In this document: piece after piece, positions 23,897 through 58,908 of the stretch
Layout: each line of letters opens with the position of its first letter
Numbering within the stretch: the first letter of the stretch is position 1
DNA from: a virus
Strand: one strand, 5' to 3'
IMG/VR virus record: IMGVR_UViG_3300020572_000005
Location: 50,199 to 114,198 of that record
DNA: 64,000 bases
Made by a program: the position numbers and the translations under genes
The notes under the pieces: model-generated
What the model was told of the DNA's origin: nothing
The model's database searches: none
Seen by the model: only the letters and a program-made list of their open reading frames with translations

Positions 23897-24478
23897 ATGA
23901 AGGGACTAGCATTAGGATGTAGTCACACTGCAGGAGTAGGAGTATCGGCAACAGAATGTTATGTTTCTTTGTTGTCGACGCATTATAACTGCGAGATTAT
24001 TAATACTGCTGTGCCAGGCGGAAATGCAGAAAACTGTTTAAAACACCTAGTAGCACAGTTACGTGCAAGAACTCCAGATTTTGTAATAGCACAATGGCCA
24101 AATCCCATTAGACGAACACTTTGGATTAATAACAAACCTCAGTGTGAAACTATACAAAGTTCTAGTACTACGTTTCATTTGTTGTTAAAGTCAGGAATTG
24201 ACAATTTTATTCAGCCTTGGTTGCAGTGTATTATTACTGCAGATACTTTATGTAAGTTTGCCAGAATTAAAATTGTGCATATTATGCTAGAAGATTTAGA
24301 TTCTAAATATGTTGATGTTCTACATAACAATGATATAACATTACATAGAGATTTAAAAAAACCTGGGCAAACATGGTTATTTGATTCAGCCGGGTCAGAC
24401 AACCTACATCACTCACCACGTTGTCACGCCCAATGGGCAGAACGATTAATTGGACTATTAAATGAACATACCACATGA
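23897..24478 (+). CDS. SGNH-like hydrolase (2)
   Basis: The N-terminus LALGCSHTAG matches SGNH block I with Ser in GCSHT, VPGGNAEN fits the Gly/Asn block, and the C-terminal HHSPRCHAQWAERL supplies candidate His residues in a D/N-x2-HHSP arrangement. The 193-residue product has no signal peptide. It is one of three SGNH-type proteins here (with 16822-17397 and 62393-63154). A role in removing or adding acyl groups on the modified glycan is inferred from context. It begins immediately after radical SAM gene D and overlaps E by 17 nt. Confidence 0.6.
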   Translation: MKGLALGCSHTAGVGVSATECYVSLLSTHYNCEIINTAVPGGNAENCLKHLVAQLRARTPDFVIAQWPNPIRRTLWINNKPQCETIQSSSTTFHLLLKSGIDNFIQPWLQCIITADTLCKFARIKIVHIMLEDLDSKYVDVLHNNDITLHRDLKKPGQTWLFDSAGSDNLHHSPRCHAQWAERLIGLLNEHTT

Positions 24479-26961: not shown

Positions 26962-28001
26962 TAGATCAAATTGAAATTACTTTAAAAGGCAATGACAACA
27001 GCACTACGACAGTGTGGATTGATGTTGCAGATAACAGCTTGAGTCACAAATGGCTTGCCGCATTAAATACCCTAATCCGTAACAATTATCATTTGGAAAA
27101 GAATTACTGTTTTTTTGGATTTGTGCAAAGTCAACGCAACGCAGAATACTTAACCGAACAAATGAACAGTAGTATTGCTGCCATTAATGCTGCCAACATT
27201 GGATATCATATTGACGATTATTTTTCAACTGCTAATACTATTGCGCCCGATGTAAAGTTAATACATGATAAGTTAAACTATCTACATCGTTACTTTGAAG
27301 ATTTGCAAGGTATATCGGGTGCAATGAGTCCTTTTTATACCAAAGCAGATCCCGTGACACGATGGCATATAAGACAATTAAATTTGTTATGTCATGAATA
27401 CGAAAGTCTTGTTCTCAGTATGCGCAAAGTACTTTATACACCTGAATGGCAACGACCTAGTCAACTCATGTGTTGGTTACACGCACCGCGATTTGTGTTA
27501 GATGAACAAGATTATGAACTGTTTGGAGTTGAAACAATCAATAGGCCACTGGGTGGAGTTTTTGTAGGCGTAAATAAAGCTGTAGGCAAACACCATTGGG
27601 AAGTGTTCAATGATGAAGGACGAGACAGCCGTGTAGGAGAGTTAATAACTACAACGCTAAAACCACAAACAGAAGCCGCCGGCGACTTTGACATTGAATG
27701 GGCCAACAATCCTGGCACATTTCCGTGGCAGCAAAAAACCTTGACAGATTTTAGAGTATGGTTAACAAACAACGGGTTTGATCCAGAAGATAAAAGTCTA
27801 ACCATTGGACATCCGCAGGTGGCACAGGTAGATTTAATCCGTAGTTTTGGAACAGATAACTATGTAGATATATGGAACACCTTAGGAAGTCATCTTAACG
27901 TGCATAAAATACGCACCAGTGATGCAACAGCTACATACAGTTATAATTGGACAGATGCAGATTATGCAGATCAACAAATTAAAATAATACAAGGGACATG
28001 A
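26958..28001 (+). CDS. Conserved hypothetical protein coupled to radical SAM genes, 347 aa
   Basis: ATG 26958 overlaps the preceding TGA by 4 nt and is preferred to 26940. The protein begins IDQIEITLKGNDNSTTTVWID and contains a helical, histidine- and tyrosine-rich middle (KLNYLHRYFEDLQGI, WHIRQLNLLCHEYESL), then LGGVFVGVNKAVGKHHWEVF. Possible metal ligands (several His, Asp and Glu) are visible but no known motif. Its location between radical SAM F and a carbamoyltransferase suggests a role in the same modification process. I do not recognise the family. Confidence 0.6.
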   Translation: MIDQIEITLKGNDNSTTTVWIDVADNSLSHKWLAALNTLIRNNYHLEKNYCFFGFVQSQRNAEYLTEQMNSSIAAINAANIGYHIDDYFSTANTIAPDVKLIHDKLNYLHRYFEDLQGISGAMSPFYTKADPVTRWHIRQLNLLCHEYESLVLSMRKVLYTPEWQRPSQLMCWLHAPRFVLDEQDYELFGVETINRPLGGVFVGVNKAVGKHHWEVFNDEGRDSRVGELITTTLKPQTEAAGDFDIEWANNPGTFPWQQKTLTDFRVWLTNNGFDPEDKSLTIGHPQVAQVDLIRSFGTDNYVDIWNTLGSHLNVHKIRTSDATATYSYNWTDADYADQQIKIIQGT

Positions 28002-28002
28002 T

Positions 28003-28104
28003 ATGAACTGGATTAAAAATTTATACAATCGTATTCGTTTAGAAATACGCTATCGTAAAAAACTAAAAGAACTACGTAAACGAGATCCTTTTATCTACAA
28101 ATGA
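28003..28104 (+). CDS. 33-residue basic peptide before the carbamoyltransferase
   Basis: The ATG at 28003 follows the previous stop by 1 nt and the TGA overlaps the carbamoyltransferase ATG (ATGA at 28101). The product begins MNWIKNLYNRIRLEIRYRKK and ends KRDPFIYK: one strongly basic amphipathic helix. I recall comparable small basic ORFs in marine phages, but cannot check this here. It could bind nucleic acid or a membrane, or be a partner or substrate of neighbouring enzymes. Function unknown. Confidence 0.6.
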   Translation: MNWIKNLYNRIRLEIRYRKKLKELRKRDPFIYK

Positions 28105-29612
28105 AGTTGAAAACATATTTGGGTGTCAGTGCCGGGTTTCACGATGCCGCTGTGAGTGTAATTCAGTCTGACGGCAGTGTACTTTTTGCCGGGCATGCAG
28201 AACGCTACAGCAAAAACAAAAACGATGCACATCTAAATGATTCGATCATTGCAGAAGCAATGTCATACGCAACTCCGGATGTGATTGCATACTATGAACG
28301 TCCGTGGGTCAAAAAACTACAACAACTATATTCGGGACAATATGAGGAAGCCTTTGATTTTGGGAATTTTACTTTGGATCAGTATTTGCATAAACATCTA
28401 TCTGATACTGTTCATCGGCAGCAACTACTACGATGCCCTAGAAAATATATGTCCCATCATCATAGTCACGCCGCCGCAGGATTCCAATCCAGCCCCTATA
28501 ACAGGGCCACAGTGGTTGTAATTGATGCCATTGGTGAATTAGACACCGTAACTATCTGGGGAGCAGAATATGATCGATCAGGCATGGCAACGTATAAAAA
28601 ACTTTGGACACAGCGTTACCCACATTCAATTGGATTGTTCTACTCTGCGGCTACTGGCAGCGTTGGCCTACGCCCACTAGACGAAGAATATATCTTGATG
28701 GGTATGGCCGCATATGGCAATGCTAGTCACGCTGTTAAAATGCAAGCATTGGTAGAAGATGTAGACACCATACGCTTTTGTGAAAATCTACACACAGGAA
28801 TAGACAGTCAATACCTGCAAGATTTAACTGAGTTTGATATTGCCGCAGGTGCACAAGCCATTGCGGAACAATTGATCAACAGCGTGATGCGCAGAGCCAG
28901 AGACTTTGGCTGGAGCAACAACTTGGTCTACATGGGCGGTGTTGCTCTCAACTGTAGTGCTAACCGCAACCTAGGAGAATACTTTGATAATATTTGGATT
29001 ATGCCTTGTCCTGGTGACGCTGGCAGTAGTTTGGGCGCGGCAGCACTTGCATACGGAAAACAGATACATTGGAAAAACGCCTATTTGGGTTGTGTTATTC
29101 CGGGTGCTTATCCTGTTGCTGATATTGTATCTTGCTTACTAAGCGATAAAATTGTTGGTGTTGCTAGTGGTCGTGCTGAGTTTGGCCCTAGGGCTCTCGG
29201 CAATAGGAGTTTATTAGCAGACCCGCGTGGTGCAGACATAAAGGATCGTGTAAATGATATTAAAAGACGACAGCAATTCAGACCATTTGCGCCGGTTATT
29301 TTGGAGGAGCATGTTGATATGTATTTTGATATGCCTCATGGCTTCCATAACAGTAGGTATATGCAAGTCATCGCTCGCTGTAGGCATCCTCACATATTTC
29401 CTGCTATCGTTCATAGGGACGGCACTAGTAGGGTACAGACTGTTCCTAAGGATGGCTCCGGAATAAGACAACTGCTAGAAGAATGGTACAAGGCAACAGG
29501 TTGTCCTATGTTGCTTAACACAAGTCTTAACATACGTGGCGAACCCATGGTAAATGATCGTGCAGACGCAGATAGATTTGAACAATTATACGGAGTAAAA
29601 GTCTGCTCATGA
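28101..29612 (+). CDS. Carbamoyltransferase, NodU/CmcH family
   Basis: A 503-residue protein with both halves of the family. The N-terminal Kae1/TsaD-like part has YLGVSAGFHDAAVSVI near residues 6-21 and the metal-binding HHHSHAAAGF at about 115-124. The C-terminal part contains EFGPRALGNRSLLADPR, RPFAPVI and LLNTSLNIRGEPMV. These enzymes transfer a carbamoyl group from carbamoyl phosphate, through carbamoyl-adenylate, to a sugar or antibiotic hydroxyl. Length is slightly short compared with usual members (about 550-600). It lies in the operon between a 33-residue peptide and radical SAM G, overlapping both by 4 nt. A glycan hydroxyl is the likely acceptor. Confidence 0.9.
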   Translation: MKLKTYLGVSAGFHDAAVSVIQSDGSVLFAGHAERYSKNKNDAHLNDSIIAEAMSYATPDVIAYYERPWVKKLQQLYSGQYEEAFDFGNFTLDQYLHKHLSDTVHRQQLLRCPRKYMSHHHSHAAAGFQSSPYNRATVVVIDAIGELDTVTIWGAEYDRSGMATYKKLWTQRYPHSIGLFYSAATGSVGLRPLDEEYILMGMAAYGNASHAVKMQALVEDVDTIRFCENLHTGIDSQYLQDLTEFDIAAGAQAIAEQLINSVMRRARDFGWSNNLVYMGGVALNCSANRNLGEYFDNIWIMPCPGDAGSSLGAAALAYGKQIHWKNAYLGCVIPGAYPVADIVSCLLSDKIVGVASGRAEFGPRALGNRSLLADPRGADIKDRVNDIKRRQQFRPFAPVILEEHVDMYFDMPHGFHNSRYMQVIARCRHPHIFPAIVHRDGTSRVQTVPKDGSGIRQLLEEWYKATGCPMLLNTSLNIRGEPMVNDRADADRFEQLYGVKVCS

Positions 29613-30874
29613 CTGATAAACAAGTATTTCCAATCAAAACAGACACAGGATGCTTGCTCAAGTGGGCCTGGAGCACTGTGTACTTAAATCAAGGCACAAG
29701 TGCTAGTTGTCACCGTACAGACCAACAACCCATACCTCCAGACAACTTTGAAAGTTTTCATAATCTGCCAAACAAAATAGAAGCCAGGCAAATGATGTTG
29801 CGTGGCGAATGGCCACAGGGTGGTTGTCAGTACTGCGAAAAGATTGAAACAGCTGGCGGCATGAGCGACAGACAATATCAATTACATGCTCGTCATGACC
29901 TGGATCGTACTCCGCACGAGTTGTTTAAAGATCCAACTACGTTGGAAGTTGTACCTACCATATTAGAAGTATATTTCAACAATGTATGCAACATGGCCTG
30001 CTTGTATTGCGGCAGTCACTTTAGTACAAAATGGGAAGAAGAGAACCGACGATTTGGTGTGTTTACACAAGGCAATGTAAACTTTGGGCACAACACACAA
30101 TCTAATCCCAACTATGAGCGCATGCTGGCAGACTTTTGGCGCTACCTGGAAGAGAAAGATCGTTACAAACACATACGCTACTATCAAATACTGGGTGGCG
30201 AGCCTTTCTTCCAGGATGAGTTTGACATCAGCATGGACTTCTGGGAAAGTCATCCCAATCCAGAACTTACATTTAACATTATTACCAACCTAAAGGTACC
30301 ACCTAAAAAGTTCCAAGCCTACATTGATCGCTTTGGCAAGATGGTTGAGTCTGGCGCACTAAAACGATTGCAAATCACAGGTAGTATAGATGCCTGGGGA
30401 CCACAAGAAGAATATGTGCGGTGGGGATTAGACTTGGCCGAGTGGACAGAAAACTGGGAATATCTACTAGACAAAGACTGGGTTGTGATGTGCGTGAACA
30501 GTGCAGTGTCGGCATTGACAATTAAAACAGCACCTGAGCTAGTGGAAAAGATAAACGAGTGGAACGATCGTCGCAATCCGTGGAATCCTATTAGCTACAG
30601 TTTCATGAGTGTGATGACCCCGCCTGAAATGGTTCCAGACATATTTGGACCAGGCGTGTTTGAACAGGACTTTGCACGTTTACTGGCCGCAATGCGAGAA
30701 CGCAATCCCAGCGAAGTCAGTGCTAAAGAACACATGCGTGGCATTATGAAACAGATTGTAGCAGGACCTCGCAACGCAGAACGTATTGCTGATTTGAAAG
30801 TTTATCTGACTGAAATAGATCGACGTCGTGTCACTGATTGGAAACTGTTGTTTCCGTGGCTGATAGAACTATAA
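29609..30874 (+). CDS. Radical SAM protein G, KW-type twitch
   Basis: This 421-residue protein has C127-x3-C131-x2-C134 (VCNMACLYCGSHFS) and ILGGEPFF. Auxiliary cysteines are C15 (GCLLKW), C34 (SCHRT), C73 and C76 (CQYC), matching A, B and D; the closest match is D. It starts within the carbamoyltransferase stop (4-nt overlap) and ends 73 nt inside the convergent gene on the other strand. It is the last gene of the forward operon. Confidence 0.8.
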   Translation: MTDKQVFPIKTDTGCLLKWAWSTVYLNQGTSASCHRTDQQPIPPDNFESFHNLPNKIEARQMMLRGEWPQGGCQYCEKIETAGGMSDRQYQLHARHDLDRTPHELFKDPTTLEVVPTILEVYFNNVCNMACLYCGSHFSTKWEEENRRFGVFTQGNVNFGHNTQSNPNYERMLADFWRYLEEKDRYKHIRYYQILGGEPFFQDEFDISMDFWESHPNPELTFNIITNLKVPPKKFQAYIDRFGKMVESGALKRLQITGSIDAWGPQEEYVRWGLDLAEWTENWEYLLDKDWVVMCVNSAVSALTIKTAPELVEKINEWNDRRNPWNPISYSFMSVMTPPEMVPDIFGPGVFEQDFARLLAAMRERNPSEVSAKEHMRGIMKQIVAGPRNAERIADLKVYLTEIDRRRVTDWKLLFPWLIEL

Positions 30875-31668
30875 TAGTCTAGGTTGCTGGGTGCGGACCG
30901 TTGGTTGTCCATCTGTTCAAGATCTAATGCTGCCAACACATCCTTACTAGTGGTTGGTTCACGCAATGCTCGGCCTTGTACATGAATCAAGTCCTGTGCT
31001 TGATTATAATGCCAACCCGGATCAATTAGTTCTAACCTATTATTTAATAATACGCCAATACTGGTAAAAACACACTTAGGTGGAATTAACAAATTTTTAA
31101 CGTTGTCAAATTGTTCCAAGGATATTGCGTTTATTAATGATGTCAGCCCAATAGGTCGATCCTGGAAGCACAGTTCAAATGCTCCGCCGCATAGATATAC
31201 ATTTTCAACGTCAGGATACTGTGAATTGAGCAAATATACCACCTGGTCCAGAGTCCAGGCCGCAAACATTTTCTGATCCTGTCTGAGAGGCATAGTTAAC
31301 ACAGCCGGATTAGTGACTGGTGTATCATGAAGTATAAATTGATTTACAACAGGTCCATGATGGTTGTCAGAGATTATCTGTGCATGTTCTTGTGCCAACC
31401 AGGCTGAACCTGTGTAGGCTGGAACAGCAGGATTGAGATCGGGATTGAACACCTGTCTACTGTTGTGCCAAATTGGCGATTCTATTGGCGTTGCTGATGT
31501 TCCGTGCAATTCGTATTCTGTGTAAGATGCAACCACTATGCACTTTACAAAATCTTGTTGAATAAACTCGGCTAAGTGTTTAAACATTTGATGCGGCCGA
31601 TGGCCAACTGGATCTAGCCATGCATCAATGACAATAACCGCACTTGGAGTTCGAAACTTACTGGACAT
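30802..31668 (-). CDS. Hypothetical protein, 288 aa, convergent with radical SAM G
   Basis: The protein begins with a beta strand (SAVIVIDAWLDPVGHRPHQMF), has a CIVVASYTEYEL strand-turn and a VYLCGGAFELCF block, an order that loosely resembles isochorismatase-like or hydrolase alpha/beta folds, but no catalytic triad is clear. Its last 24 codons lie opposite the 3' end of radical SAM G. It overlaps the downstream start of the radical SAM H stop region by 11 nt, so it is translated as the last gene of a five-gene reverse operon. I assign no function. Confidence 0.55.
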   Translation of the reverse strand: MSSKFRTPSAVIVIDAWLDPVGHRPHQMFKHLAEFIQQDFVKCIVVASYTEYELHGTSATPIESPIWHNSRQVFNPDLNPAVPAYTGSAWLAQEHAQIISDNHHGPVVNQFILHDTPVTNPAVLTMPLRQDQKMFAAWTLDQVVYLLNSQYPDVENVYLCGGAFELCFQDRPIGLTSLINAISLEQFDNVKNLLIPPKCVFTSIGVLLNNRLELIDPGWHYNQAQDLIHVQGRALREPTTSKDVLAALDLEQMDNQRSAPSNLDYYSSISHGNNSFQSVTRRRSISVR

Positions 31669-32689
31669 GACACAGTTCTACTAAACTGGGATTAAACTGT
31701 ATGCGTCCTGCATATTCCGAATATGCTGTGCCTAAAAAGTACATGGCTGCTGAATGATCTGTATGAGAGATGTTGCCAATCACATCATGTTCAGCATAAT
31801 TGACCCATGTGCCCCAATCTTCTAAGCGGTTAATCACTCCGCTAAATCCCATATCAACACATAGTCGACAGAAGTTCTGCATGTCTTGATAGTTGTCTTG
31901 CTGTAGCACAAACTTTAACAGTACTTCTGCACCTGTACGTTCTACAGTGCCCTGCAACCAAGTTAAGTTGGTAATCAACTGTGACCACTGTCCTCCTAGA
32001 CGCACACGTTCATATACTGGAGCAGAGCCTGCATCTATGCTGATAAAATACTGTGTAATGTGATCAAGTATAGGAGAATCATCCAGTTGTTTTTTCAATA
32101 ACAAGCCATTGGTGAACAACCGAATAGTTTGATTGGGGCCTGGACAAAATTCTCGTATCAATGGTCGCATAATAGCACTGGCCAACGGATCGCCGTTGCC
32201 ACTCATTACAATGTGGCAAGGTTCTTTAAATTCTTCTAACAAACGACGTATGTGTTGTACCTGTGCTAGTTTGCGATCATACTCGTCGCCAGAGTTGATC
32301 ATTATTGCCGCAGGCCTGCAACTTGGGCAACGTAGATTACAACTTTCGTCAACGTTGATGCTGACCACGTGTGTTGTATCTATTTTGCTAGAGTGTACCA
32401 CACCACATCGATCAACAGCACAATGTGTATAAGCACCAGAATCAATGTCGGCTTGTAATGCCAATGCTGACTTGCTGTTCCATACACTGGCCAATGAATC
32501 AAAGTCTGAAATTTGTCCTACACTGATTGGCAACCATGCTTCGCATCCACATACAAAACAATCACCTTTCCAGTCTATAACCAATTGGCGACTGGGTGCA
32601 TTGCAGTGATTGTCAATTGTTAATTTTAAATCTGCATTGCGCGGTATTGAATTGTAGGAGTGCCGGTTAGCAATTGGAATGACAAACAT
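31658..32689 (-). CDS. Radical SAM protein H with cysteine-rich N-terminal domain
   Basis: ATG 32689 shares a base with the upstream stop (TAATG), so I prefer it to an earlier in-frame start at 32740. The 343-residue product has SAM motif C117-x3-C121-x2-C124 (SCNLRCPSCRPA). Upstream are C29, C44, C47, C49, C90 and C95, which could hold one auxiliary cluster in a SPASM/twitch-like domain. The usual GGEP is replaced by SGNGDPLA. The middle contains IRLFTNGLLL. It is coupled to an amidinotransferase. It is the most divergent of the eight and the only one on this strand. Confidence 0.75.
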   Translation of the reverse strand: MFVIPIANRHSYNSIPRNADLKLTIDNHCNAPSRQLVIDWKGDCFVCGCEAWLPISVGQISDFDSLASVWNSKSALALQADIDSGAYTHCAVDRCGVVHSSKIDTTHVVSINVDESCNLRCPSCRPAAIMINSGDEYDRKLAQVQHIRRLLEEFKEPCHIVMSGNGDPLASAIMRPLIREFCPGPNQTIRLFTNGLLLKKQLDDSPILDHITQYFISIDAGSAPVYERVRLGGQWSQLITNLTWLQGTVERTGAEVLLKFVLQQDNYQDMQNFCRLCVDMGFSGVINRLEDWGTWVNYAEHDVIGNISHTDHSAAMYFLGTAYSEYAGRIQFNPSLVELCHVQ

Positions 32690-33708
32690 TATAGATATGT
32701 TTCTAAGCCGCCTCGGCGTGTCAAGTCCTGTGTACAGCAACTGATGCCACCATCCCAGAAGTAACTATGACGCAGTTCACTAATAATTGGATTGATACGA
32801 TGCCGTTTACAGAAATCAAACACATCTCTGTTGTACGCACTGAAGATAACATTTTCTTCGTCCAGCACTAAACAATTGACATCAAACACTGTTTCGGCAA
32901 CAAAGCCGGTCCATTTGTTCAAGTATGTGTCAACAAACTTTGTAAACTCCTGTGTGGGGGTTTGTCCTTGCACATACCATGCTCCAGGGCTTTGTTCGTA
33001 CTTGAACTTGCCTATTTCCATGGCTGCCCAGATACTGCTATCCCAAATCTTTAGCACTTCCCATCCTGGAAAGTCCTTGGCAAGATCTAAGTTGACATCG
33101 TGCTTGCTAGACAAAATAACACCGGGCTTGAGAATAGCAAACACAGCATCGCCGTGGCCGTCTGTTACTGCTTCGTGTATACGATACTCTGGGCCCAAGC
33201 AGTTGTCCACAATCCAACGTGTTTGTTCTGGCTTTAGATAATCACTGTTGTCAAAGAATACGTCACGCCCTACACGCACAATACAACTAGCACTTGCTTG
33301 GTTAAGAATGCAGTCAGCATCCCACCGACCGTTATGTGGACTGATCACTTGGTCTGCATATTCTGCACAAATGTCGTCCAGTTCTTCCATTGGTAACACA
33401 CGCAGTAACTTTTGTCCCAGACTAATTTGCCAATCACGTGGAGTCAACGGAGGCAAAGGTGCACCACCGTTTTCTGTTTGCCACCACACAAATTGATCCT
33501 TGGGTGGTAAGTTGGGACGACGTACACGAGCACCATAGGTTTCGATGGTCTTTTGCAGGTTGTTTAAATCTTCCTCAGTCTCGGCTAGAATTTGTTGTAG
33601 TTGATTGCGCACCTGCGGATTGTCAATAAAGTCAAAATAATCTGGACTGTAAGCACGACCCACAATAACTTCTTCTAAGGGTTGCCAACTGGTGTAGGAA
33701 TTAATCAT
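32689..33708 (-). CDS. Amidinotransferase-like protein
   Basis: This 339-residue protein matches the amidinotransferase fold: N-terminal SWQPLEEVIVGRAY, VTDGHGDAVF near residues 181-190 with H185 as the likely catalytic His, and RHSYFWDGGISCCT near 313-326 with C325 in the position of the catalytic Cys. In known members these residues, with Asp, move an amidino group from arginine to an amine (glycine or inosamine). The usual HC before Thr is CC here. Closely related enzymes are hydrolases, so transfer rather than hydrolysis is inferred. It overlaps radical SAM H by 1 nt and the upstream gene by 8 nt. Confidence 0.75.
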   Translation of the reverse strand: MINSYTSWQPLEEVIVGRAYSPDYFDFIDNPQVRNQLQQILAETEEDLNNLQKTIETYGARVRRPNLPPKDQFVWWQTENGGAPLPPLTPRDWQISLGQKLLRVLPMEELDDICAEYADQVISPHNGRWDADCILNQASASCIVRVGRDVFFDNSDYLKPEQTRWIVDNCLGPEYRIHEAVTDGHGDAVFAILKPGVILSSKHDVNLDLAKDFPGWEVLKIWDSSIWAAMEIGKFKYEQSPGAWYVQGQTPTQEFTKFVDTYLNKWTGFVAETVFDVNCLVLDEENVIFSAYNRDVFDFCKRHRINPIISELRHSYFWDGGISCCTQDLTRRGGLETYL

Positions 33709-34888: not shown

Positions 34889-35987
34889 GGAGCATGCTAG
34901 TTAGTTCTGGCCATAATACGTTTGTCAGGCCACCCCTGTAAAAATGGCGGAAGTTGTGTTCCACGAGAGGTAAACACGCACGATGTATTGATTGGCGCTC
35001 TCTTGCACTTTGATTGTCTAGATCTTTTAGTAATCGAGCGACCTTTTCCACACGTAGCACGTCGTCGGTTTCGGCATCATAGCTTTCATCAAATATGTCA
35101 TCAAAAGTTTTAAATCCGTAACTGCGCATATACTCTAAGCTGTGGGCAGGTGCAACCAATACAAATGGCATTTCTAATGCAATAGCTTTAAATGTTTTTT
35201 CTGTTATGTGTGTTCTGCGTCCAAAGTATACAGTTTCGGTAGGAACATATACCAAACTGTCTTGTGCTTCTGCATAGTTACCTAGCCAGCAACTGGTCAT
35301 CTGTTGTGATTCTTCTCCTGCAAACAATCTTGGCAAGGCAGCATGTTCAAACACTTGCGAAATATCTGGATATGTGTTACAATACTTGTTGGCCACAACA
35401 CTTATATCAACATTTTCGTATTGGCATACTCGTGGCACACTGATATGATTGTGTTCTAAACCTTGTTTGAATACATTATACAAAAACAACACACGATGAT
35501 CACGCTTGCCACCTACAATACGATTGGGACTCATAAAAGTCCGTGTGGGCGCACGATCTCTTGCTCGAGGAATTAAGAATGACTTGTCATAACCGCGGAA
35601 CCAGTCTTGACAGGCCCAGCCGTGGTAAAAATAATAGTGACTTTTCCATCCGTATGTTTCACATAGACGTTCAACATACTCGCCATGTTCACTTACAACA
35701 ACATGACCAAATTGGGTTGGCTTTACTTGATTATGTTGATGCCACCACAAATCTATATTCCGTCTTGCTACATCATCAAACAATGGCCGATATTCTTCCG
35801 TCCAGCACGGCTCTTGATCGTGCATCCACACGTAGTCAGTTTCTATGATGTCATCACTGCCCAAGTTAAATAAAGCATCCGGGTCGGTTTGGCCCGGCGG
35901 ATCACAAAAAAACAATCTCGTACCTGGTAGATTTTTTTCTATCCAAGGCCAAAAAGTATTATTATAAATCTCGTCTATTCTTATCAT
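34872..35987 (-). CDS. Glycosyltransferase-like protein, DESYD family (3)
   Basis: This 371-residue protein starts at ATG 35987, which shares two bases with the divergent ATG at 35986. It has HDQEPCW near residue 55, a motif also present in 55248-56567 (HDQEPL), and the shared C-terminal block ITEKTFKAIALEMPFVLVAP, GFKTFDDIFDESYD. It is the first gene of the reverse operon ending with 30802-31668. No ribosome site precedes the start. A nucleotide-sugar transferase is the most likely role; it may instead be non-enzymatic. Confidence 0.5.
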   Translation of the reverse strand: MIRIDEIYNNTFWPWIEKNLPGTRLFFCDPPGQTDPDALFNLGSDDIIETDYVWMHDQEPCWTEEYRPLFDDVARRNIDLWWHQHNQVKPTQFGHVVVSEHGEYVERLCETYGWKSHYYFYHGWACQDWFRGYDKSFLIPRARDRAPTRTFMSPNRIVGGKRDHRVLFLYNVFKQGLEHNHISVPRVCQYENVDISVVANKYCNTYPDISQVFEHAALPRLFAGEESQQMTSCWLGNYAEAQDSLVYVPTETVYFGRRTHITEKTFKAIALEMPFVLVAPAHSLEYMRSYGFKTFDDIFDESYDAETDDVLRVEKVARLLKDLDNQSARERQSIHRACLPLVEHNFRHFYRGGLTNVLWPELTSMLHGLRK

Positions 35988-38817
35988 GTTTGATGTATTT
36001 TATTCTGGAAAAAAGCCCAATTTGTTTGCGCATGAGCAGGCAGTAGATACCATTGAACAAGCACAACAGCAGAGTCGTACACGGTTCTTTTGGTTTGTAA
36101 ATTACTTATCGGACTACTCTGGCTTTGATTTTCTTTGGGAGCCAGTGCCTTGGCAAGCACACCAGCGACATGCCTGGGCAAGTCAACACCAACCAGATTC
36201 GGGCACATATCTTGTGCCTACAGTAGGCTACACAGATACAAACTATCACACCGATGTAGTATTGCAAAGAATCAACAATGAAGATTCATGGAAAATACAC
36301 GAAGCAATAGATCAAGAGTCATGGGATTGGTCCTGGCATCCTGATCCGGCAGAGCCTCCTTACATCTACGTGTTTGGTAATCAGTGGAACTTTCCTGAAT
36401 ACAAGGCCAGTGTAGAGTATGTTGTACCTGGAGCGACTGAACGCAAGTACATGGATCTAAAAACAACTAGACTACCGCTGCCGCAGTTATTTGCACATAA
36501 TCTAGCAGTGAGCAAGTTTGATTATTCGTGGGAACCTAATCCGTTTGATCCTCCTTATGTGTATGTGTTTGGCAATCAGTGGAACCCTGGTGTACTAGAG
36601 CCCACGATAATTTATACAGTACCCGGAGCAACAGAACACAAGTATGTAGATGACATTGTGGCCACTGTAGCATCCAGTCCTGCAGACTTTGATGTGTTGC
36701 ACGATATTGCTGACTTTGATTATTCCTGGAGACCCAATCCTACAGATCCAGATTACATATATGTGTTCGGCAATGAATGGCACACAGCAGAGATCATGCC
36801 CACAGTGGAATATCAAGTGGGCAGTGCCACTGAACGCAAATATGTAGAATACCCTCGAGCTAAACTGCCACAGCACCGCAATAATAAATGGCACACAGTA
36901 GAAGATTGTGATTGGAATTATTCCTGGATACCAGATCCAGGTGATCCTCCTTACACGTATGTGTTTGGCAATCAGCATTGGTCTGCTGAAATTATGCCTA
37001 CTGTCACATACACAGTTCCTGGCGCAACTGAACGCAAGTACATGGATTATCCACGTGCTCAACTGTTAGAAACACACCTACACTGGGACACTATTACACA
37101 TCATGACTATGAGTTTGATCGATCTTGGCGACCCGATCCTGGTGAGCCGCCTATGATATATGTGTTTGGCAACCAACACTGGCCTGCAGAGAAAATGCCC
37201 GTGTTGCGTTACTGTTCCGAGCCTGCGGATCAAGACTTGCCCATCAAGTACATGGACTACCCTCGAGCCACACTACTGCCCAACAAAACAATGTGGGTGC
37301 TACCTGAGGGTGTGCGTGAAGAACACGTGGACTTCTCTTGGGTTCCTGATCCTGGTGAACCTGCCTACATCTATCAGTTTGCTACACAGTGGCAAAAAAC
37401 CGGCGGCCCACAGTATCATGTGCCTGGTGCAACTGAAATCAAGTACCTTGAGCATGTAGAAATCAAAATTGAAACTACCACAGTTCCTATTGTGGAGATT
37501 GATCACTTGGATGGTAGTGCAGGTAACATTCCCGATACCGTCAAACGCATACGTTACTTTGACAACTATAGGGATACACTTGTACGTTTAGCCAAAAGTC
37601 TAGTTGGTGAGCATGAGTTTGTATGGGTATGTAGCAGTATTTGTGACTACACTGACTTTGACTTTTCGTGGCACCCGGAAAAATGGCAAAGCACTATGCT
37701 ACATGTATTTGCCTCCAATGAACAAAAGTTTGGAGATACATTCTACATGCACGTTCCTACATTTGCGGCTCGTGCAGAGAAGAAAGCCCTGTTGGAATGG
37801 TACAGCGTAAACTATGTGCCACGGATTCGTGTTTCACGCAGACCCATGCCTGTGATACAGCACACAGAAGACAGTCATGTAGATGCAGTCAAGAACGCAA
37901 CATGGTCAGGTCCATTGGCCACATTTACCACAACTGATTGTGTGTCGGATAATGTAGTCACAGTTCCGCTGTGGCGCACTGAAACCAAAACTATTGTGCC
38001 ATTGAGTAAAGGTGCTGCCAGTGTGATTGTTCCGCGAGTGGCAGTAGGTGATATTCGTACACAGTTATATGATTACCCGTACATTAATAAAACACAACGC
38101 ATGGGCAAAGAACATCCGTTGGACATTGTGTTTATAAGCAATGGCGAAAAGTATGCTGGTTTTCATGAACAACAGTTATATCGATCAGTACAAAGAGACG
38201 GGCTTGACTGCAATCACATACATCATTCTACAGGCGTAAACGGTCGAGTGGCAGCATACCAAGCAGCCGCCAGGTCAAGCACAACACCTTGGTTCTTTGC
38301 TGTGTTTGCCAAGCTAGAAGTTGATCCCAAGTTTGACTGGACATGGCAACCTGATCGTATGCAACAGGCCAAGCACTACATCTTTCACGCATACAATCCT
38401 GTGAATGGATTGACATATGGTCACCAAGCTATGATTGCATACAATAAGAAAATGGTGTTGGAGAACGTTGGAGCAGGATTAGACTTTACACTGGATCAAC
38501 CGCATGAAGTTGTGCCCGTGCTCAGTGGTGTAGCTAATTATAATGAAACACCTTGGACAGCTTGGCGCACTGCATTCCGTGAAGTGCTTAAATTAAAGGC
38601 CAGTCTGCCAGATGTAGAAAGTGAATACCGACTCCGTATGTGGCTCAGTAATGCTGGCGAAGTTCCAAATGCAGAATGGAGTCAGTGGGGCGCCGAAGAT
38701 GCAGTAGAGTACTACGACGAAGTAGGCGGCGACTTTGCGGCTCTAAAGAAAAGTTACGAGTGGACTTGGTTGGCCAGTTATGCGTTTATGCGACGCAGTT
38801 TACAACCTGATCGCTGA
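35986..38817 (+). CDS. 943-residue tandem-repeat protein with glycosyltransferase-like C-terminus
   Basis: Six clear copies of a unit of about 55-75 residues lie between residues about 110 and 490. Each has (F/W)D(Y/W/R)SW.P.P.(D/E)PPY.YVFGNQ, then (T/V)...VPGATE.KY(M/V)D(YPRA). Two looser copies flank them (FDFLWEPVPWQ near 45; FDFSWHPEKWQ near 560), and a last copy FDWTWQPDRMQ lies in the C-terminal domain. Residues about 700-943 match the 308-residue protein at 15896-16822 in block order (VNGRVAAYQAA, VNGLTYG, WTAWRTAFREV). I infer a degenerate GT-A chain or a long scaffold, possibly a substrate of the island. There is no signal peptide. It is transcribed divergently from 34872-35987. Confidence 0.7.
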   Translation: MFDVFYSGKKPNLFAHEQAVDTIEQAQQQSRTRFFWFVNYLSDYSGFDFLWEPVPWQAHQRHAWASQHQPDSGTYLVPTVGYTDTNYHTDVVLQRINNEDSWKIHEAIDQESWDWSWHPDPAEPPYIYVFGNQWNFPEYKASVEYVVPGATERKYMDLKTTRLPLPQLFAHNLAVSKFDYSWEPNPFDPPYVYVFGNQWNPGVLEPTIIYTVPGATEHKYVDDIVATVASSPADFDVLHDIADFDYSWRPNPTDPDYIYVFGNEWHTAEIMPTVEYQVGSATERKYVEYPRAKLPQHRNNKWHTVEDCDWNYSWIPDPGDPPYTYVFGNQHWSAEIMPTVTYTVPGATERKYMDYPRAQLLETHLHWDTITHHDYEFDRSWRPDPGEPPMIYVFGNQHWPAEKMPVLRYCSEPADQDLPIKYMDYPRATLLPNKTMWVLPEGVREEHVDFSWVPDPGEPAYIYQFATQWQKTGGPQYHVPGATEIKYLEHVEIKIETTTVPIVEIDHLDGSAGNIPDTVKRIRYFDNYRDTLVRLAKSLVGEHEFVWVCSSICDYTDFDFSWHPEKWQSTMLHVFASNEQKFGDTFYMHVPTFAARAEKKALLEWYSVNYVPRIRVSRRPMPVIQHTEDSHVDAVKNATWSGPLATFTTTDCVSDNVVTVPLWRTETKTIVPLSKGAASVIVPRVAVGDIRTQLYDYPYINKTQRMGKEHPLDIVFISNGEKYAGFHEQQLYRSVQRDGLDCNHIHHSTGVNGRVAAYQAAARSSTTPWFFAVFAKLEVDPKFDWTWQPDRMQQAKHYIFHAYNPVNGLTYGHQAMIAYNKKMVLENVGAGLDFTLDQPHEVVPVLSGVANYNETPWTAWRTAFREVLKLKASLPDVESEYRLRMWLSNAGEVPNAEWSQWGAEDAVEYYDEVGGDFAALKKSYEWTWLASYAFMRRSLQPDR

Positions 38818-42273: not shown

Positions 42274-42302
42274 AGTATAGCATGAGGATTAGTTTTTAGC
42301 AA
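42274..42302 (-). promoter_or_regulatory. Sigma70-like promoter TTGCTA-17-TATACT
   Basis: On the minus strand TTGCTA (42302-42297) and TATACT (42279-42274) are 17 nt apart, just ahead of the gene starting at 42268. The short distance implies a very short leader. Confidence 0.4.
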
Positions 42303-42981
42303 CCAAGTCGGCTGCCATTGGAAAGATTGCTGTAATGGCTAGAGCGCAAGCTCTTGCAATTTCCATGTGCTCTTTTTGTGTGCCATTGGCCGCACGTAGT
42401 TCAATGTAATGAATCCATGAACGTAGTGTACCATTCATGTACATACGGCTAATGGTAAGGCCTTCTGGTAGAACAGCACGGGCCTGTTCTTTGGCAATGC
42501 CATTTTTAATTGCCCAAGAGTATTCTTGTTTGACACTAAACAGCACACGCCGCTGAGCACGTTCCCATTCAAATGCAATTAACCGTTGCTGTTCATCTGA
42601 CAGATCTAGTTCTACACTGTTCTGACGATTCCGTGTGTCTTGGAATCGTGCTTCACGCAGAACGAACGCTTCGTCGAGTTCTTGTGTAGGATCAGCATAA
42701 CGCTGAGAGAACTCTTGAAAACTAAAACTACGATGACGTAAGATCTGTCTTGCAATATCACGTGTGGTTGTAATTTCCATACAGGCCGAAACCATTTCCA
42801 GTGGGCTCCAATGTTGGTGTCGAACTAGATACTTGATTAGTCGTTCGCTTGTTTCTGTGTTTAACTGATTGGCAGGATTGCTGACACGGGCGCAATACGC
42901 AATTAGTTCTTGCGCATCTGCAACACCCTGGTCAGCAAACTCCGTAGTCGGCTGACTGTACGATACGAGTTGAATTTTCAT
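42289..42981 (-). CDS. thyX: Flavin-dependent thymidylate synthase ThyX
   Basis: The ThyX signature RHRSFSFQEFSQRY is present at residues 82-95 of 230, the usual length and position. The enzyme methylates dUMP to dTMP using methylene-tetrahydrofolate, FAD and NADPH, supplying phage DNA synthesis. Its start overlaps the upstream oxygenase stop by 4 nt. Phage-encoded ThyX is common in T4-like phages of many bacteria. Confidence 0.95.
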   Translation of the reverse strand: MKIQLVSYSQPTTEFADQGVADAQELIAYCARVSNPANQLNTETSERLIKYLVRHQHWSPLEMVSACMEITTTRDIARQILRHRSFSFQEFSQRYADPTQELDEAFVLREARFQDTRNRQNSVELDLSDEQQRLIAFEWERAQRRVLFSVKQEYSWAIKNGIAKEQARAVLPEGLTISRMYMNGTLRSWIHYIELRAANGTQKEHMEIARACALAITAIFPMAADLVAKN

Positions 42982-51494: not shown

Positions 51495-51523
51495 ATTATA
51501 CAATAAATCGAGTTAATTGTCAA
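51495..51523 (-). promoter_or_regulatory. Perfect sigma70 promoter TTGACA-17-TATAAT for the tRNA array
   Basis: TTGACA (51523-51518) and TATAAT (51500-51495) match the consensus fully with a 17-nt spacer, starting transcription into tRNA-Leu and the following tRNAs. Confidence 0.85.
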
Positions 51524-51533
51524 CCAGAAGAGA

Positions 51534-52040
51534 TTAACTGTTTAGGACTTTGGCAACCGAATTCATCACTGCGGCAATACGTCCAATATCACGAAGCTGT
51601 TCTACTGTGTAGCCTTCTTGCTTGAGTGTTTCGTAATGTGCCTTAACACAGAAGTGGCACCGGCCAACAATACTTGCGGCCAAACTAAATGCTTCAAAGT
51701 TTGATTTGGTAGTTCCACCATGTGATGCAATAGCGTTCATGCGTAACTGTGCTGGCAGTCCTTTTAGAGCAGGATCATCAGCCATTTCAATGTAAGGATA
51801 CCACACATTGTTCTGTGCCATGATGCTGGCAGCAGTCATTGCTGACTCTGCGTGTACCGGAGCATCTGCTAAAATTACTGATAGGATCTTTCCGTTACCA
51901 GTTGCGGCCAATGCGGCCACGGCACAACCCATAGCCACATCTGCATCTAATGTACTACGCAAAAGTACTGCATCAAGATTTAACTTGGTGTCCTTTGCGT
52001 AGTCTGGCAATGCACCTTTGACGGCGTCGATGAAACTCAT
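51534..52040 (-). CDS. ahpD: AhpD-like alkylhydroperoxidase (carboxymuconolactone decarboxylase fold)
   Basis: The catalytic motif C128-HF-C131-x3-H135 (RCHFCVKAHYE) is present in a 168-residue protein, close to the usual 170-180. In known bacteria AhpD reduces the peroxiredoxin AhpC. Here it is the last gene of an ahpC-aldolase-BI1-ahpD operon, with the start sharing a base with the BI-1 stop (TAATG). Host-derived acquisition is likely. It would detoxify peroxides during infection. Confidence 0.85.
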   Translation of the reverse strand: MSFIDAVKGALPDYAKDTKLNLDAVLLRSTLDADVAMGCAVAALAATGNGKILSVILADAPVHAESAMTAASIMAQNNVWYPYIEMADDPALKGLPAQLRMNAIASHGGTTKSNFEAFSLAASIVGRCHFCVKAHYETLKQEGYTVEQLRDIGRIAAVMNSVAKVLNS

Positions 52041-52729
52041 TATTTTCTATCTCCAAACAGTTGTAACAGATTGATAAACAAGTTGATAAAGTCCATGTAC
52101 AAAGTCAATGCTCCGCGAATTTCTGCCGAGTCACTGGTTTCTACTGACAGTTCTTCACGAATCTTCTGTGTGTCGTAAGCAGTTAATCCCAGAAAGATAA
52201 TGATAGCCAGTGCGGAGATCACCATCTGCATCACGGTGCTGCCAATAAAGATGTTAACAATACTGGCAATCACGATGGCAATTAAGCCAACAAACATGAA
52301 CTTGCCCATGCTGTCTAGACTTTGTTTGGTAAAGTAGCCATAGCCACTCATTACTGCAAACAAGATGCCTGCACCCATAAATGCTGACACAATACTACCC
52401 ATAGTGAACACAGCAAAGATCATGGAAAAACTCAAGCCCATTAAGGCCGCAAATCCATGCAAGCATAACTGTGCTACGCCTTTGCTGGGATTATTACCTA
52501 GCACATAGCTGACACCAAAGATGGCCGCAAGTGGTGAAAAGATCACAATCCATTTTATCCAACCTGTAAAAAAGAATGCCAGTAACTCTGGACTAGATCC
52601 CACAAAGTAACTCACAAACATTGATACAATCACAGCAAGACTCATGTGTCCATACACACGGCCCATTGCTGAATTAATTTCGCTGGCAGAACGATATGCA
52701 ATTCCACCTGTATAACTTGTTCCAAACAT
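52040..52729 (-). CDS. Bax inhibitor-1/YccA-YbhL family membrane protein
   Basis: A 229-residue protein with about seven hydrophobic segments and the C-terminal signature LTLYMDFINLFINLLQLFGDRK, typical of bacterial BI-1 proteins. The GLTAYDTQKI segment, including the Asp of the proposed pH sensor, is present. These are inner-membrane channels or regulators, in some cases linked to FtsH. It has a clear ribosome site (AAGGAGAAAATC). It is coupled to ahpD by 1 nt and lies 10 nt after the aldolase gene. Confidence 0.85.
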   Translation of the reverse strand: MFGTSYTGGIAYRSASEINSAMGRVYGHMSLAVIVSMFVSYFVGSSPELLAFFFTGWIKWIVIFSPLAAIFGVSYVLGNNPSKGVAQLCLHGFAALMGLSFSMIFAVFTMGSIVSAFMGAGILFAVMSGYGYFTKQSLDSMGKFMFVGLIAIVIASIVNIFIGSTVMQMVISALAIIIFLGLTAYDTQKIREELSVETSDSAEIRGALTLYMDFINLFINLLQLFGDRK

Positions 52730-52739
52730 GATTTTCTCC

Positions 52740-53363
52740 TTAAAATTTACCTGATGCCAATACGATTTGACAAATATGTTCTAATCGTTCAATGTGTTCA
52801 AATGCCCGCCACGGGCTTGTATCAATGGCCACAACTCCGTGACCTTTGATGCCTACGATGTCAAAACCAATTGTGCCATCTTTTCTTAGCCAGAGATTTT
52901 CATGACAACGGTCTGCAAGCTCTTGACTGATAGGAGGTACATCTCCTACGTTCTTGGCCACTCGAGTATATCTACTTAGTTCTGGAAAGTCATCAACTAT
53001 AGTGCTCAAGTCAATGCCGGCGTGCATAGCAGCCACACAGTATGTAGGATGTAAATGAACCACTACTCTAACATCAGTGCTGTGCTGACCCATTGCTCGT
53101 TGTAGGCCAAAATGTAGAGGAATTTCTCCGCTGGGCTTGAGATTGGCACTGATATCAGAGTAAGGCTCTTCTTTCCATGCCAAACTGCTTACAATCTTGA
53201 TCTTCTTGAACTGGTCAGGTTGCATGGTCTGCTTACGAACGCCACTGGGTGTGATATAAAAGTGATCACGGTCGTGATGACGAATGCTCACATTGCCATC
53301 ACGACTGGTAATCCAGTTGCGTCTATATGCTTCAACCAGTGTGTCGCATATAGTTTCTAACAT
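52740..53363 (-). CDS. Class II aldolase/adducin-like protein
   Basis: The 207-residue product has the domain order of class II aldolases: GNVSIRHHD, ITPSGVRKQTM, VVHLHPTYC with two zinc-binding His, and GIKGHGVVA with another. The expected acidic catalytic residue is present as E near the sugar-phosphate site but is not assigned with confidence. Such enzymes cleave fuculose-phosphate or methylthioribulose-type substrates; here the substrate is unknown. The start shares a base with the ahpC stop (TAATG). Confidence 0.75.
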   Translation of the reverse strand: MLETICDTLVEAYRRNWITSRDGNVSIRHHDRDHFYITPSGVRKQTMQPDQFKKIKIVSSLAWKEEPYSDISANLKPSGEIPLHFGLQRAMGQHSTDVRVVVHLHPTYCVAAMHAGIDLSTIVDDFPELSRYTRVAKNVGDVPPISQELADRCHENLWLRKDGTIGFDIVGIKGHGVVAIDTSPWRAFEHIERLEHICQIVLASGKF

Positions 53364-53902
53364 TACAGTGTCTCGCCACCAACTGTACGGTTACAAGCAC
53401 AAAGCTCGCCAGTTTGTAGTGCATCCAATACACGAAGTGTTTCTTCTGGGCTACGACCAACGTTCAAGTTGTTGACAGTAACGTGTTGGATAACGTTCTC
53501 TGGGTCAACAATGAATGTGGCACGAAGTGCGGCGCCTGCTGGAGCATAGAACACGCCCAACTGTTCAATCAAACTCAACTCACCACGCTGTGTGTCAGCA
53601 TACTGGTGATGGGTGATCTTCTTTAGATCTGCGTGTGCTGTTTGCCATGCTACTTTGCAGAACTCATTGTCTGTGCTACCAGTGAGCAGGACTGCATCAC
53701 GGTCAGCAAAGTCTTGTGTTAGTTTGTCGTAGGCTACGATTTCTGTAGGGCAAACGAATGTAAAGTCTTTTGGATAGTAAACGATTACTTTCCACTTGCC
53801 TTCAAAACTTGTTTCAGTGATGGTATAGAAAGCGTCTTCTGGTTGTCCGGGCTTAACGCCTGTGACTGCAAATGGGGCTAATTTGTCGCCAACTGTTTTC
53901 AT
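53363..53902 (-). CDS. ahpC: Peroxiredoxin AhpC
   Basis: A 179-residue 2-Cys peroxiredoxin with peroxidatic C51 in FTFVCPTE and resolving C168 and C170 (ELCACNRT), the C-terminal CxC form that in known bacteria is reduced by AhpD. It heads the peroxide-defence operon and has an AAAGGAG ribosome site. An inverted repeat and a weak TACAAT -10 lie in the upstream 180 nt. The gene was probably acquired from a bacterial host. It would protect the infected cell from peroxides. Confidence 0.95.
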   Translation of the reverse strand: MKTVGDKLAPFAVTGVKPGQPEDAFYTITETSFEGKWKVIVYYPKDFTFVCPTEIVAYDKLTQDFADRDAVLLTGSTDNEFCKVAWQTAHADLKKITHHQYADTQRGELSLIEQLGVFYAPAGAALRATFIVDPENVIQHVTVNNLNVGRSPEETLRVLDALQTGELCACNRTVGGETL

Positions 53903-53932
53903 AATATCTCCTTTGTGTTGAATGAAAATGTT

Positions 53933-53950
53933 TGCAGAAGTTTTTCTGCA
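53933..53950 (-). promoter_or_regulatory. Hairpin in the ahpC leader
   Basis: A 7-bp stem TGCAGAA/TTCTGCA with a 4-nt loop lies about 30 nt before ahpC, downstream of a possible TACAAT -10 (53963-53958). It may affect expression. Confidence 0.35.
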
Positions 53951-54015
53951 TGTGTATATTGTACAGTTATTTACATGAGAAATCGACCATCTCTCATGGT
54001 TTCTACTGAATATAT

Positions 54016-54040: not shown

Positions 54041-54068
54041 AATAAAGAAAACCCGCTAAAGCGGGTTT
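54041..54068 (-). terminator. Intrinsic terminator of the porin gene
   Basis: Minus-strand stem AAACCCGC/GCGGGTTT with loop TTTA is followed by TCTTTATT. It is 20 nt after the porin stop. Confidence 0.85.
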
Positions 54069-54088: not shown

Positions 54089-55114
54089 TCAGAAACTATG
54101 TGACAATCCAATGTAACTAGCTGTACCTATGTTTGCAGTATCGGCTGCACCAGCGGCAGTTACAGCTTGCTTGGTATCTGATAAAAACGCTTCAAGTTTA
54201 GTACGCTTGCTGAAAGAATACACTGCGCGAACGCCTGTAACACCCTTCTTAGTGTTGGCAGCACCATTGGCACCAATGTTTACATTGTTAGACAACTTAG
54301 ACAAAGACACATCTAACTTGGCATTAACTGGAACTTTAATGCCGTACTCAGTTGACTTATGAGCTGCCATAGAAGTCAAATTGTCTTTTTGATTCATTTG
54401 GTTAACTGCAACTTCTGCAAATCCAAAATTGTAAGCGGCGTTGATAGTTTGCAACTTTTCAGCATTGAGACCAGTGATATTAGCAACTTGAGCTTTTAAT
54501 CCTCCTGCTGAATAGTTAACACCAATGACGTTCACATCATTCATCAACGTTGCTGTGGTTGTAGTGGCAAAACCATTGCCAGGGACCACTACATATTTGT
54601 TATGTCTGCCCTTGGCGTTTAATAAAAATACCTCTGCACCAGCAATCTTAGGCGAAGTGTATTGCACTTGTGCAGAATTGCGACCATAATTCAAGCCAGA
54701 ATGGGTACCTTTAGACCAGTCTTGCATATAATGGCCGGCACCGTTTGTGCTGACCAACTGAGTAGAGAAACGACCTAATTTAACATTGCCGAACTTGCTA
54801 TCCACAAAAATATTAGACTGTTCCCACAATTGAGTGTTGGCGTCACCAGTTGATGAATTAGCATATGACCCTTGTGCACCAGTTTCGGAACTAAAACGAT
54901 TTTGTAAAAAAATACCAACTTTGGTACCACCGCCTAAGTCTTCAGCGGCACTAAAGTTTAAATAATTACGGTCACCTTTGGCAGCGCCAACGGTAGTAAC
55001 TCCGGCAGCAGACCTTGCTACACCATATTGAACCTGACCAGAAATTGTCACGGTTGATTGTGCAAGGACAGCAGTAGATACAGTCAATGCTAAGATTGCG
55101 AAGATTTTCTTCAT
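54089..55114 (-). CDS. Gram-negative general porin, Burkholderiales type
   Basis: The 341-residue product starts with a signal peptide (MKKIFAILALTVSTAVLA, cleavage before QS) and the mature N-terminus STVTISGQVQYGVA. It is rich in alternating beta strands and ends with aromatic Phe (YIGLSHSF), the outer-membrane sorting signal. Motifs GNVKLGRFSTQL and TKLEAFLSDTKQ match the trimeric porins of Comamonadaceae and relatives. It would form a diffusion pore in the host outer membrane. A phage-borne porin is unusual. It has its own terminator and a repeat-flanked promoter region upstream. Confidence 0.9.
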   Translation of the reverse strand: MKKIFAILALTVSTAVLAQSTVTISGQVQYGVARSAAGVTTVGAAKGDRNYLNFSAAEDLGGGTKVGIFLQNRFSSETGAQGSYANSSTGDANTQLWEQSNIFVDSKFGNVKLGRFSTQLVSTNGAGHYMQDWSKGTHSGLNYGRNSAQVQYTSPKIAGAEVFLLNAKGRHNKYVVVPGNGFATTTTATLMNDVNVIGVNYSAGGLKAQVANITGLNAEKLQTINAAYNFGFAEVAVNQMNQKDNLTSMAAHKSTEYGIKVPVNAKLDVSLSKLSNNVNIGANGAANTKKGVTGVRAVYSFSKRTKLEAFLSDTKQAVTAAGAADTANIGTASYIGLSHSF

Positions 55115-57972: not shown

Positions 57973-58908
57973 TTATTGACCGAGTTTTGTTGCAAATGAT
58001 TCAAACATATGGTCCATGGTTTTGATATTTTGCAAATCTAATTTGTAGTCACCAGACTTGCTGACCAGATGTTTTTGAACCAAGTCAGGCATGGCCAGTT
58101 TGATTGCTTGATTCAGATCCTTGACAACTTGATCTCGCACTTCTCGGGGAGTGTCTTTTCTTATAAAGAAACTGTATCCTGCCACTAAGTTTTGGTAATC
58201 AGAGAATCCGGGACTTGTTAAATTAGGCAAATCTGGAAAGTCAGTTGACTTTTTGTTGTCAAACACAAACAGCGGTGTTAGTGTTCCGGCAGTGATGTGT
58301 TGATTAACATTGCCGTAGCTGATAACAGCAAAGTCAAGTTGATTGTTTAAAATATCTACAATCACCTGAGGTATACTTTTGTAGTTGACCAAAATTCCGT
58401 TGACTTTCATCTTGTCTATGGCTAATGATCCGTAAATGTGAAGAGGACTTCCTGTTATAGTGCTACCATATGTTAGTCCTTTTTGTTTGCCTAGTTCTGC
58501 CAGATCATTGAGATTCTTGATGTTTCTTTTGCTGTTGGTAACCAATACCCATTGTGGAGAATAGAAATGTGATACCGGTTCGAAATGCCGTTCGTAATCA
58601 AATCCTGTTGACGGTTTTGCACTGGCATAGGCAGTTGATGCGTAGAACAAAATTGTATGGCCATCGGCCGGGGCCGACAAGACATGTTGAGACGCTATGG
58701 CAGCGGCCCCACCTGGTTTGTTCATTACCACGACACCGGATTTCCAGATCCCGTCTAGTTTTTCTGCCACAGTTCTTGTGATAAGATCAAGTCCACCGCC
58801 TGCTCCTGTGGGAACAATTAGTTGTACAGGTTTCTCAGGAAACGCTGATACAGAGACACTAACACTCATAACAAGTGCGGTTAATAATGTTGATACAATT
58901 TTCTTCAC
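57973..58908 (-). CDS. Tripartite tricarboxylate transporter TctC/Bug-type binding protein
   Basis: A 311-residue periplasmic binding protein with signal peptide (cleavage after SVSVSA) and the family opening FPEKPVQLIVPTGAGGGLDL. KPGGAAAIASQHV and LTYGSTITGSPLHI also fit. TctC/Bug proteins capture carboxylates for uptake and are especially abundant in Burkholderiales. No permease genes (TctA/B) are in the window. The gene ends 11 nt before tRNA-Leu. Host acquisition is likely; transport could aid infected-cell nutrition. Confidence 0.9.
   Translation of the reverse strand: MKKIVSTLLTALVMSVSVSVSAFPEKPVQLIVPTGAGGGLDLITRTVAEKLDGIWKSGVVVMNKPGGAAAIASQHVLSAPADGHTILFYASTAYASAKPSTGFDYERHFEPVSHFYSPQWVLVTNSKRNIKNLNDLAELGKQKGLTYGSTITGSPLHIYGSLAIDKMKVNGILVNYKSIPQVIVDILNNQLDFAVISYGNVNQHITAGTLTPLFVFDNKKSTDFPDLPNLTSPGFSDYQNLVAGYSFFIRKDTPREVRDQVVKDLNQAIKLAMPDLVQKHLVSKSGDYKLDLQNIKTMDHMFESFATKLGQ

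Follow-up and report, generated by a model that had tools for sequence, protein, structure and literature searches.

Does a phage carry its own two-protein defence against peroxide, and do the genes lying between its two halves belong to it? The question is raised by four minus-strand open reading frames, ahpC, aldolase, BI-1 and ahpD, which we confirmed in that order at 53902-51534 of the window, that is, of the whole 64,000-nucleotide stretch analysed here (bases 50199-114198 of a 114,198-bp IMG/VR record). We consider it probable that they hold a phage-encoded AhpC/AhpD peroxidase operon, captured once and kept by selection, with cargo between its two genes; its activity, electron donor, early timing and benefit are those that we infer below.

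Layout of the locus and the proposed peroxidase

The first gene, ahpC (53363..53902, on the minus strand as are the other three), encodes a two-Cys peroxiredoxin of 179 aa (PF00578, E 9.7e-21). Its AhpC-TSA domain carries the peroxidatic cysteine, C51, in the VCPTE motif of DFTFVCPTE, with V50 to E54 invariant, and its tail, GELCACN(x)8, holds C168 and C170 in GELCAC. This is the C-terminal CxC of the AhpD-dependent type reported in the preliminary description, and the ELCxC of the tail is kept in 112/112 phage and 107/107 cellular sequences. The last gene, ahpD (51534..52040), encodes a Burkholderiales-type protein of 168 aa (PF02627, E 8.9e-12) containing the CxxCxxxH that had also been noted, here CHFCVKAH (C128, C131 and H135), together with E116, the catalytic Glu located 12 residues upstream of CxxC; motif and Glu are kept in phages and cells. 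Between ahpC and ahpD lie genes for a class II aldolase/adducin-family enzyme of 207 aa (52740..53363; PF00596, E 6.5e-28) and a BI-1/TMBIM (YccA/YetJ-like) membrane protein of 229 aa (52040..52729; PF01027, E 9.9e-54). TAATG overlaps join ahpC to aldolase and BI-1 to ahpD, and a 10-nt gap separates aldolase from BI-1, which has its own ribosome-binding site. The genes are thus joined by TAATG or a short gap, as stated earlier, and this layout supports the single predicted transcription unit, and single transcript, proposed for them.

In a comparison drawn from the best-scoring related loci, the catalytic residues of the four proteins are invariant across 110-112 phage sequences. All four genes are under strong purifying selection, with median dN/dS values of 0.079 (ahpC), 0.090 (aldolase), 0.068 (BI-1) and 0.067 (ahpD). 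The phage BI-1 has a Bax1-I domain (182.7 bits, over the cut-off of 34.1), like E. coli YccA and B. subtilis YetJ, the latter being its nearest solved protein, and shares their conserved C-terminal aspartates: D186 and D213 are invariant, align with YetJ and presumably form a di-aspartyl sensor as in that protein. Nevertheless, the sequence match to YccA/YetJ is weak, and the phage protein differs from them in being phage-borne, optional cargo. The aldolase has an Aldolase_II domain (98.3 bits, over the cut-off of 22.2) and invariant E80, H103, H105 and H175, which, as in the rest of the family, would be a zinc His triad and an acidic residue. A profile search of the PDB returned weak matches for it, and an AlphaFold model built from a shallow alignment reached a pLDDT of 36. 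Its assignment as methylthioribulose-1-P dehydratase (MtnB) found no support at 48.8 bits in TIGR03328, under the cut-off of 137.05; a place in the salvage of SAM by-products found none either, since besides the weak PDB matches no cut-off was reached, and the nucleosidase family checked in this connection gave short matches in 2/12 phages.

In the chemistry that we propose, C51 of AhpC would reduce H2O2, organic hydroperoxides or peroxynitrite and, once oxidised, be linked by a disulfide to the CxC of the tail; the CxxC of AhpD would then re-reduce AhpC. In Mycobacterium tuberculosis (Mtb), electrons pass from NADH through Lpd, DlaT, AhpD and AhpC to ROOH (PMC12028322). A complete AhpF/Lpd-type (Pyr_redox_2) reductase was not found in the ahpCD phages, which gave fragmentary matches only; for this reason, and by analogy with Mtb, phage AhpD is probably reduced via lipoyl dehydrogenase complexes of the host, most likely by a lipoylated 2-oxo-acid dehydrogenase E2 together with lipoamide dehydrogenase. 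The phage proteins would in this way draw on host NADH, and peroxide would be held down during infection. Peroxide defence is, in our opinion, a plausible reading of ahpCD and the best one. The pair could also mainly protect the replication chemistry of the phage (class I ribonucleotide reductase, thiol pools and radical-SAM enzymes) and not the life of the host, a possibility that deserves attention even if we would not bet on it: the window contains a radical-SAM gene array, and nrdB and glutaredoxin are found 2-7 kb upstream in 19-20/112 spans of relatives, but these spans are a minority and protection of the host fits the same data.

The ahpC-ahpD core and its variable slot

ahpC and ahpD lie on the same strand and in the same order in 112/112 distinct ahpC..ahpD spans. 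Counting the window, 113 spans were available, of which 60 lack both aldolase and BI-1, 44 contain aldolase, three contain BI-1 and six contain the two together; ahpC directly adjoins ahpD in 47/113, the junction most often being TAATG. Elsewhere the slot is occupied by genes for SGNH-like, TerC-like, SHMT, cytochrome c-like, homing-endonuclease-like or alternative oxidase proteins (slot genes without a Pfam scan were named by reading), and BI-1 and aldolase are also found in phages of 356 and 332 kb without ahpCD. The span counts, the replacements in the slot and the cargo of phages lacking ahpCD lead us to conclude that the conserved unit is ahpC plus ahpD, and that aldolase and BI-1 are optional cargo between them. 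What had been presented as one functional cassette of four genes, a view that these same observations weaken, is better seen as an operon of two genes around a variable slot. Looked for in other phages, as had been suggested, the pair proves widespread, and the full set is uncommon.

We find it unlikely that the four genes form a dedicated stress cassette, in which AhpCD would clear peroxide, BI-1 would guard either the membrane or quality control by FtsH/SecY, and a damaged metabolite would be detoxified or recycled by the aldolase. In its favour, the order of the genes and their close packing are seen in some of the six full spans, but the set is missing from the other 107; and although an alternative oxidase and a cytochrome c-like protein are among the other slot genes, homing-endonuclease-like, SGNH-like and SHMT genes occupy it as well, and aldolase and BI-1 do occur in 332-356 kb phages without the pair. 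The BI-1 cargo might act under stress, because Brucella suis tolerates H2O2 less well once BI-1 is deleted (PMC7876416).

Some individual loci add to the variety of this region. An alternative oxidase gene (PF01786, E 9.7e-76) lies between phage ahpC and ahpD at L153:2836-3447. Serine hydroxymethyltransferase is encoded in or beside the operon in three loci (L204:9833-10987), and S-adenosylhomocysteine hydrolase 3' of ahpD in eight (L157:10418-11719). At L043:8540-9535 the N-terminal part of aldolase is fused in frame to AhpD, apparently via a deletion, which is either real or an assembly error.

In front of ahpC, a ribosome-binding site, AAGGAG, was read directly at 53908..53913 (this and the following signals are on the minus strand), and a promoter is predicted at 53958..53986 (TCGATT-17-TACAAT; in relatives TTGATT/TTGACT-17-TACAAT/TATAAT). 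Sigma70-type sites departing from TTGACA/TATAAT at no more than two positions were found upstream of ahpC in 48/106 relatives, against 3 in shuffles. When the region was scanned by itself for consensus promoters, 14 sites were listed, little above the 8.9 in shuffles, and the ahpC site was not among them, so that the promoter prediction rests on conservation in relatives. Just 3' of the -10 box there is a leader hairpin (53933..53950, TGCAGAA-AAAC-TTCTGCA). Stems of at least 5 bp, 40 different ones, are present in 68/82 distinct leaders, against 26% of mononucleotide shuffles, and their position a few bases from the -10 box is kept among relatives while the stem sequence varies. Since structure is kept as sequence changes, this points to an RNA element, which might act as a 5' stabiliser; no hairpin of this type was seen at the other strong sigma70-type gene-front sites in this part of the window. 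A T4-type late promoter upstream of ahpC was rejected, showing no excess over shuffled sequences (43 vs 46 of 106).

We further propose, giving it slightly less than an even chance, that the TAATG junction of ahpC and ahpD may be a recurrent docking slot that receives diverse genes between its two co-translated antioxidant genes, the newcomers being expressed from a conserved early-type promoter with a hairpin leader. If true, the core peroxide-defence operon would also serve as a site at which respiratory and stress genes are exchanged as cargo.

Other signals and genes flank the operon. A terminator-like hairpin (54049..54068, minus strand) separates ahpC from a Gram-negative porin gene (Porin_4, 54089-55114, minus strand), which lies directly upstream; L157, a close relative, lacks it at this site. 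A perfect sigma70-type site (TTGACA-17-TATAAT, 51495..51523, minus strand) stands before the downstream tRNA cluster, and eighteen tRNA genes besides tmRNA lie on one strand between 50880 and 63987.

Family assignment, phage origin and ancestry

The nearest solved structures to the phage proteins are Mtb AhpC (2bmx, 5.8e-42) and Mtb AhpD (1gu9, 2.2e-24, a full-length match). The core domain of AhpD scores over its cut-offs (PF02627, 45.3 vs 23 bits; TIGR00778, 30.4 vs 27.8). In NCBIfam, AhpC reaches 110.6 of the 272 bits set for the equivalog TIGR03137 and is not filed there, and AhpD reaches 120.5 of the 191.95 bits set for the subfamily TIGR00777 (E 6.7e-35); because these scores are under the cut-offs, the specificity of both proteins could have drifted. 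It is nonetheless very improbable that the AhpD-like protein acts on some other substrate, as a member of the carboxymuconolactone decarboxylase superfamily, and that AhpC uses host thioredoxin or glutaredoxin: the subfamily score would allow it, but the match to Mtb AhpD covers the full length, CxxCxxxH and the upstream Glu are invariant, and AhpD is paired with AhpC in every span compared. The AhpC/AhpD peroxidase that we favour resembles the Mtb system (2bmx/7bz6 and 1gu9/1knc) in its CxC-tailed AhpC and its full-length AhpD with CxxCxxxH and upstream Glu. It differs in that phage AhpD has CHFC, as in Burkholderiales, where Mtb has CSHC, in its place in a Burkholderiales-type clade, and in that Lpd and DlaT of its own were not found in the phage.

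The 114-kb contig is a T4-like jumbo phage, freshwater-type, probably of Burkholderiales bacteria. The phage region assumed in the preliminary description is borne out by the same record, which has a gene for T4-like Gp23, the major capsid protein (E=9.5e-99), as well as baseplate, recombination-type and T4-like structural genes, named by reading. Gp23 was found in 11/13 records tested and Terminase_6N in 10/13, those of 300-357 kb among them. Every one of the four genes is found again in at least about 600 confirmed IMG/VR viral contig stretches, and the codon comparison that had been suggested places all four within 1.3 sd of the contig's other genes, that is, phage-like. Because hundreds of related virus fragments carry ahpC-ahpD, the pair belongs to these viruses of old, kept there by selection, and is not an accident of assembly. 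The notion that host DNA was joined to phage by assembly error, for which the cellular ancestry of the genes might speak, has practically no probability left, since the genes recur on independent phage contigs, several of them of 300-374 kb with Gp23 and mostly with terminase, and have phage codon usage.

The best cellular relatives of phage AhpD are almost all from Burkholderiales (47-57% identity), and ahpC lies upstream in 77/80 cellular AhpD loci. In the AhpD tree the phages form one group within Burkholderiales-type AhpD, apart from the Mtb-type clade. The one cellular row inside the phage clade, L405, comes from a Bacteroidota MAG. This contig of 5.9 kb has phage-type ahpC/ahpD together with seven tRNA genes, and it is probably a phage fragment placed in the wrong bin. 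Since phage AhpD, with L405, forms a single clade in Burkholderiales-type AhpD, the tree points to one old capture from there. The chromosomal ahpC-ahpD of Burkholderiales shares order, motif and clade with the phage pair, and identity between the ahpC genes is about 62-68% (higher for one phage piece that is probably mis-binned). On the other hand, the Burkholderiales genes are mostly 60-150 nt apart whereas those of phages are TAATG-coupled or split by cargo, and the phage genes have low-GC codon usage. In our reading, ahpC-ahpD was captured once, as a pair, from a Burkholderiales-type bacterium and compressed into its TAATG-coupled form. It came under the control of a sigma70-type promoter, probably an early one, accompanied by a 5' hairpin, and purifying selection has retained it; aldolase and BI-1 were inserted between the two genes, being co-transcribed and not needed for the peroxidase.

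The phage also has a permuted tmRNA, unusual for a phage (56646-56969, minus strand), which matches Rfam beta_tmRNA (Betaproteobacteria) and tmRNA_permuted; this betaproteobacterial type indicates the same host group, Burkholderiales, as the ancestry of AhpD. Full-length AhpD was found at E<=1e-20 in 27/300 sampled Burkholderiales genomes, so the phage may supply a capability that many hosts lack.

Earlier reports, prevalence and other genes of the window

It is mostly single ROS genes that have been attributed to phages, whereas the operon described here encodes a complete two-protein peroxidase circuit. Phage-mediated ROS defence has been published, with oxidative-stress genes in >10% of the freshwater phage genomes studied (PMC6802176); the main text of that report names ferritin, SOD, glutathione peroxidase, thioredoxin and glutaredoxin, with neither ahpC nor AhpD among the genes named. 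ahpC has been described in putative Microcystis viruses and an oxidative-stress role proposed for it (PMC12542629); these have another host, and AhpD is not mentioned in the passages considered here. Two overviews of jumbo phages make no mention of peroxidases or BI-1, and we found no report of a phage AhpC-AhpD pair in the main texts of open-licence literature. Phage ROS defence and viral ahpC are already published; what appears to be new is the complete phage AhpC-AhpD pair, together with how widely it occurs and its variable-cargo slot. The circuit must plug into the central metabolism of the host and has been retained in a lineage of T4-like jumbo phages that is itself widespread, and a defined operon makes phage peroxide defence of infected cells directly testable.

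The pair is common yet not universal in these phages. Among 13 contigs of 62-374 kb picked by capsid gene alone, both genes are on the 374-kb one and neither ahpC nor ahpD was found on the other 12, which include contigs of 303 and 223 kb whose capsid is of the same clade; most of these contigs are partial, so the true share may differ. In cultured-phage databases AhpD was not found at all, and matches to AhpC, BI-1 and aldolase were weak, many of them in short unannotated records.

Finally, other genes of the window were noted. An array of radical-SAM-like proteins (17394-32740), accompanied by a NodU-type carbamoyltransferase, looks like a modification or biosynthetic cluster, and the one member scanned is a twitch-domain rSAM protein. 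A 943-aa protein (35986-38817, plus strand) has repeats of the type SWRPDPGEPPYIYVFGNQW. The minus strand also encodes a flavin-dependent thymidylate synthase, ThyX (42289-42981), and a receptor of the tripartite tricarboxylate transporter, TctC (57973-58908).
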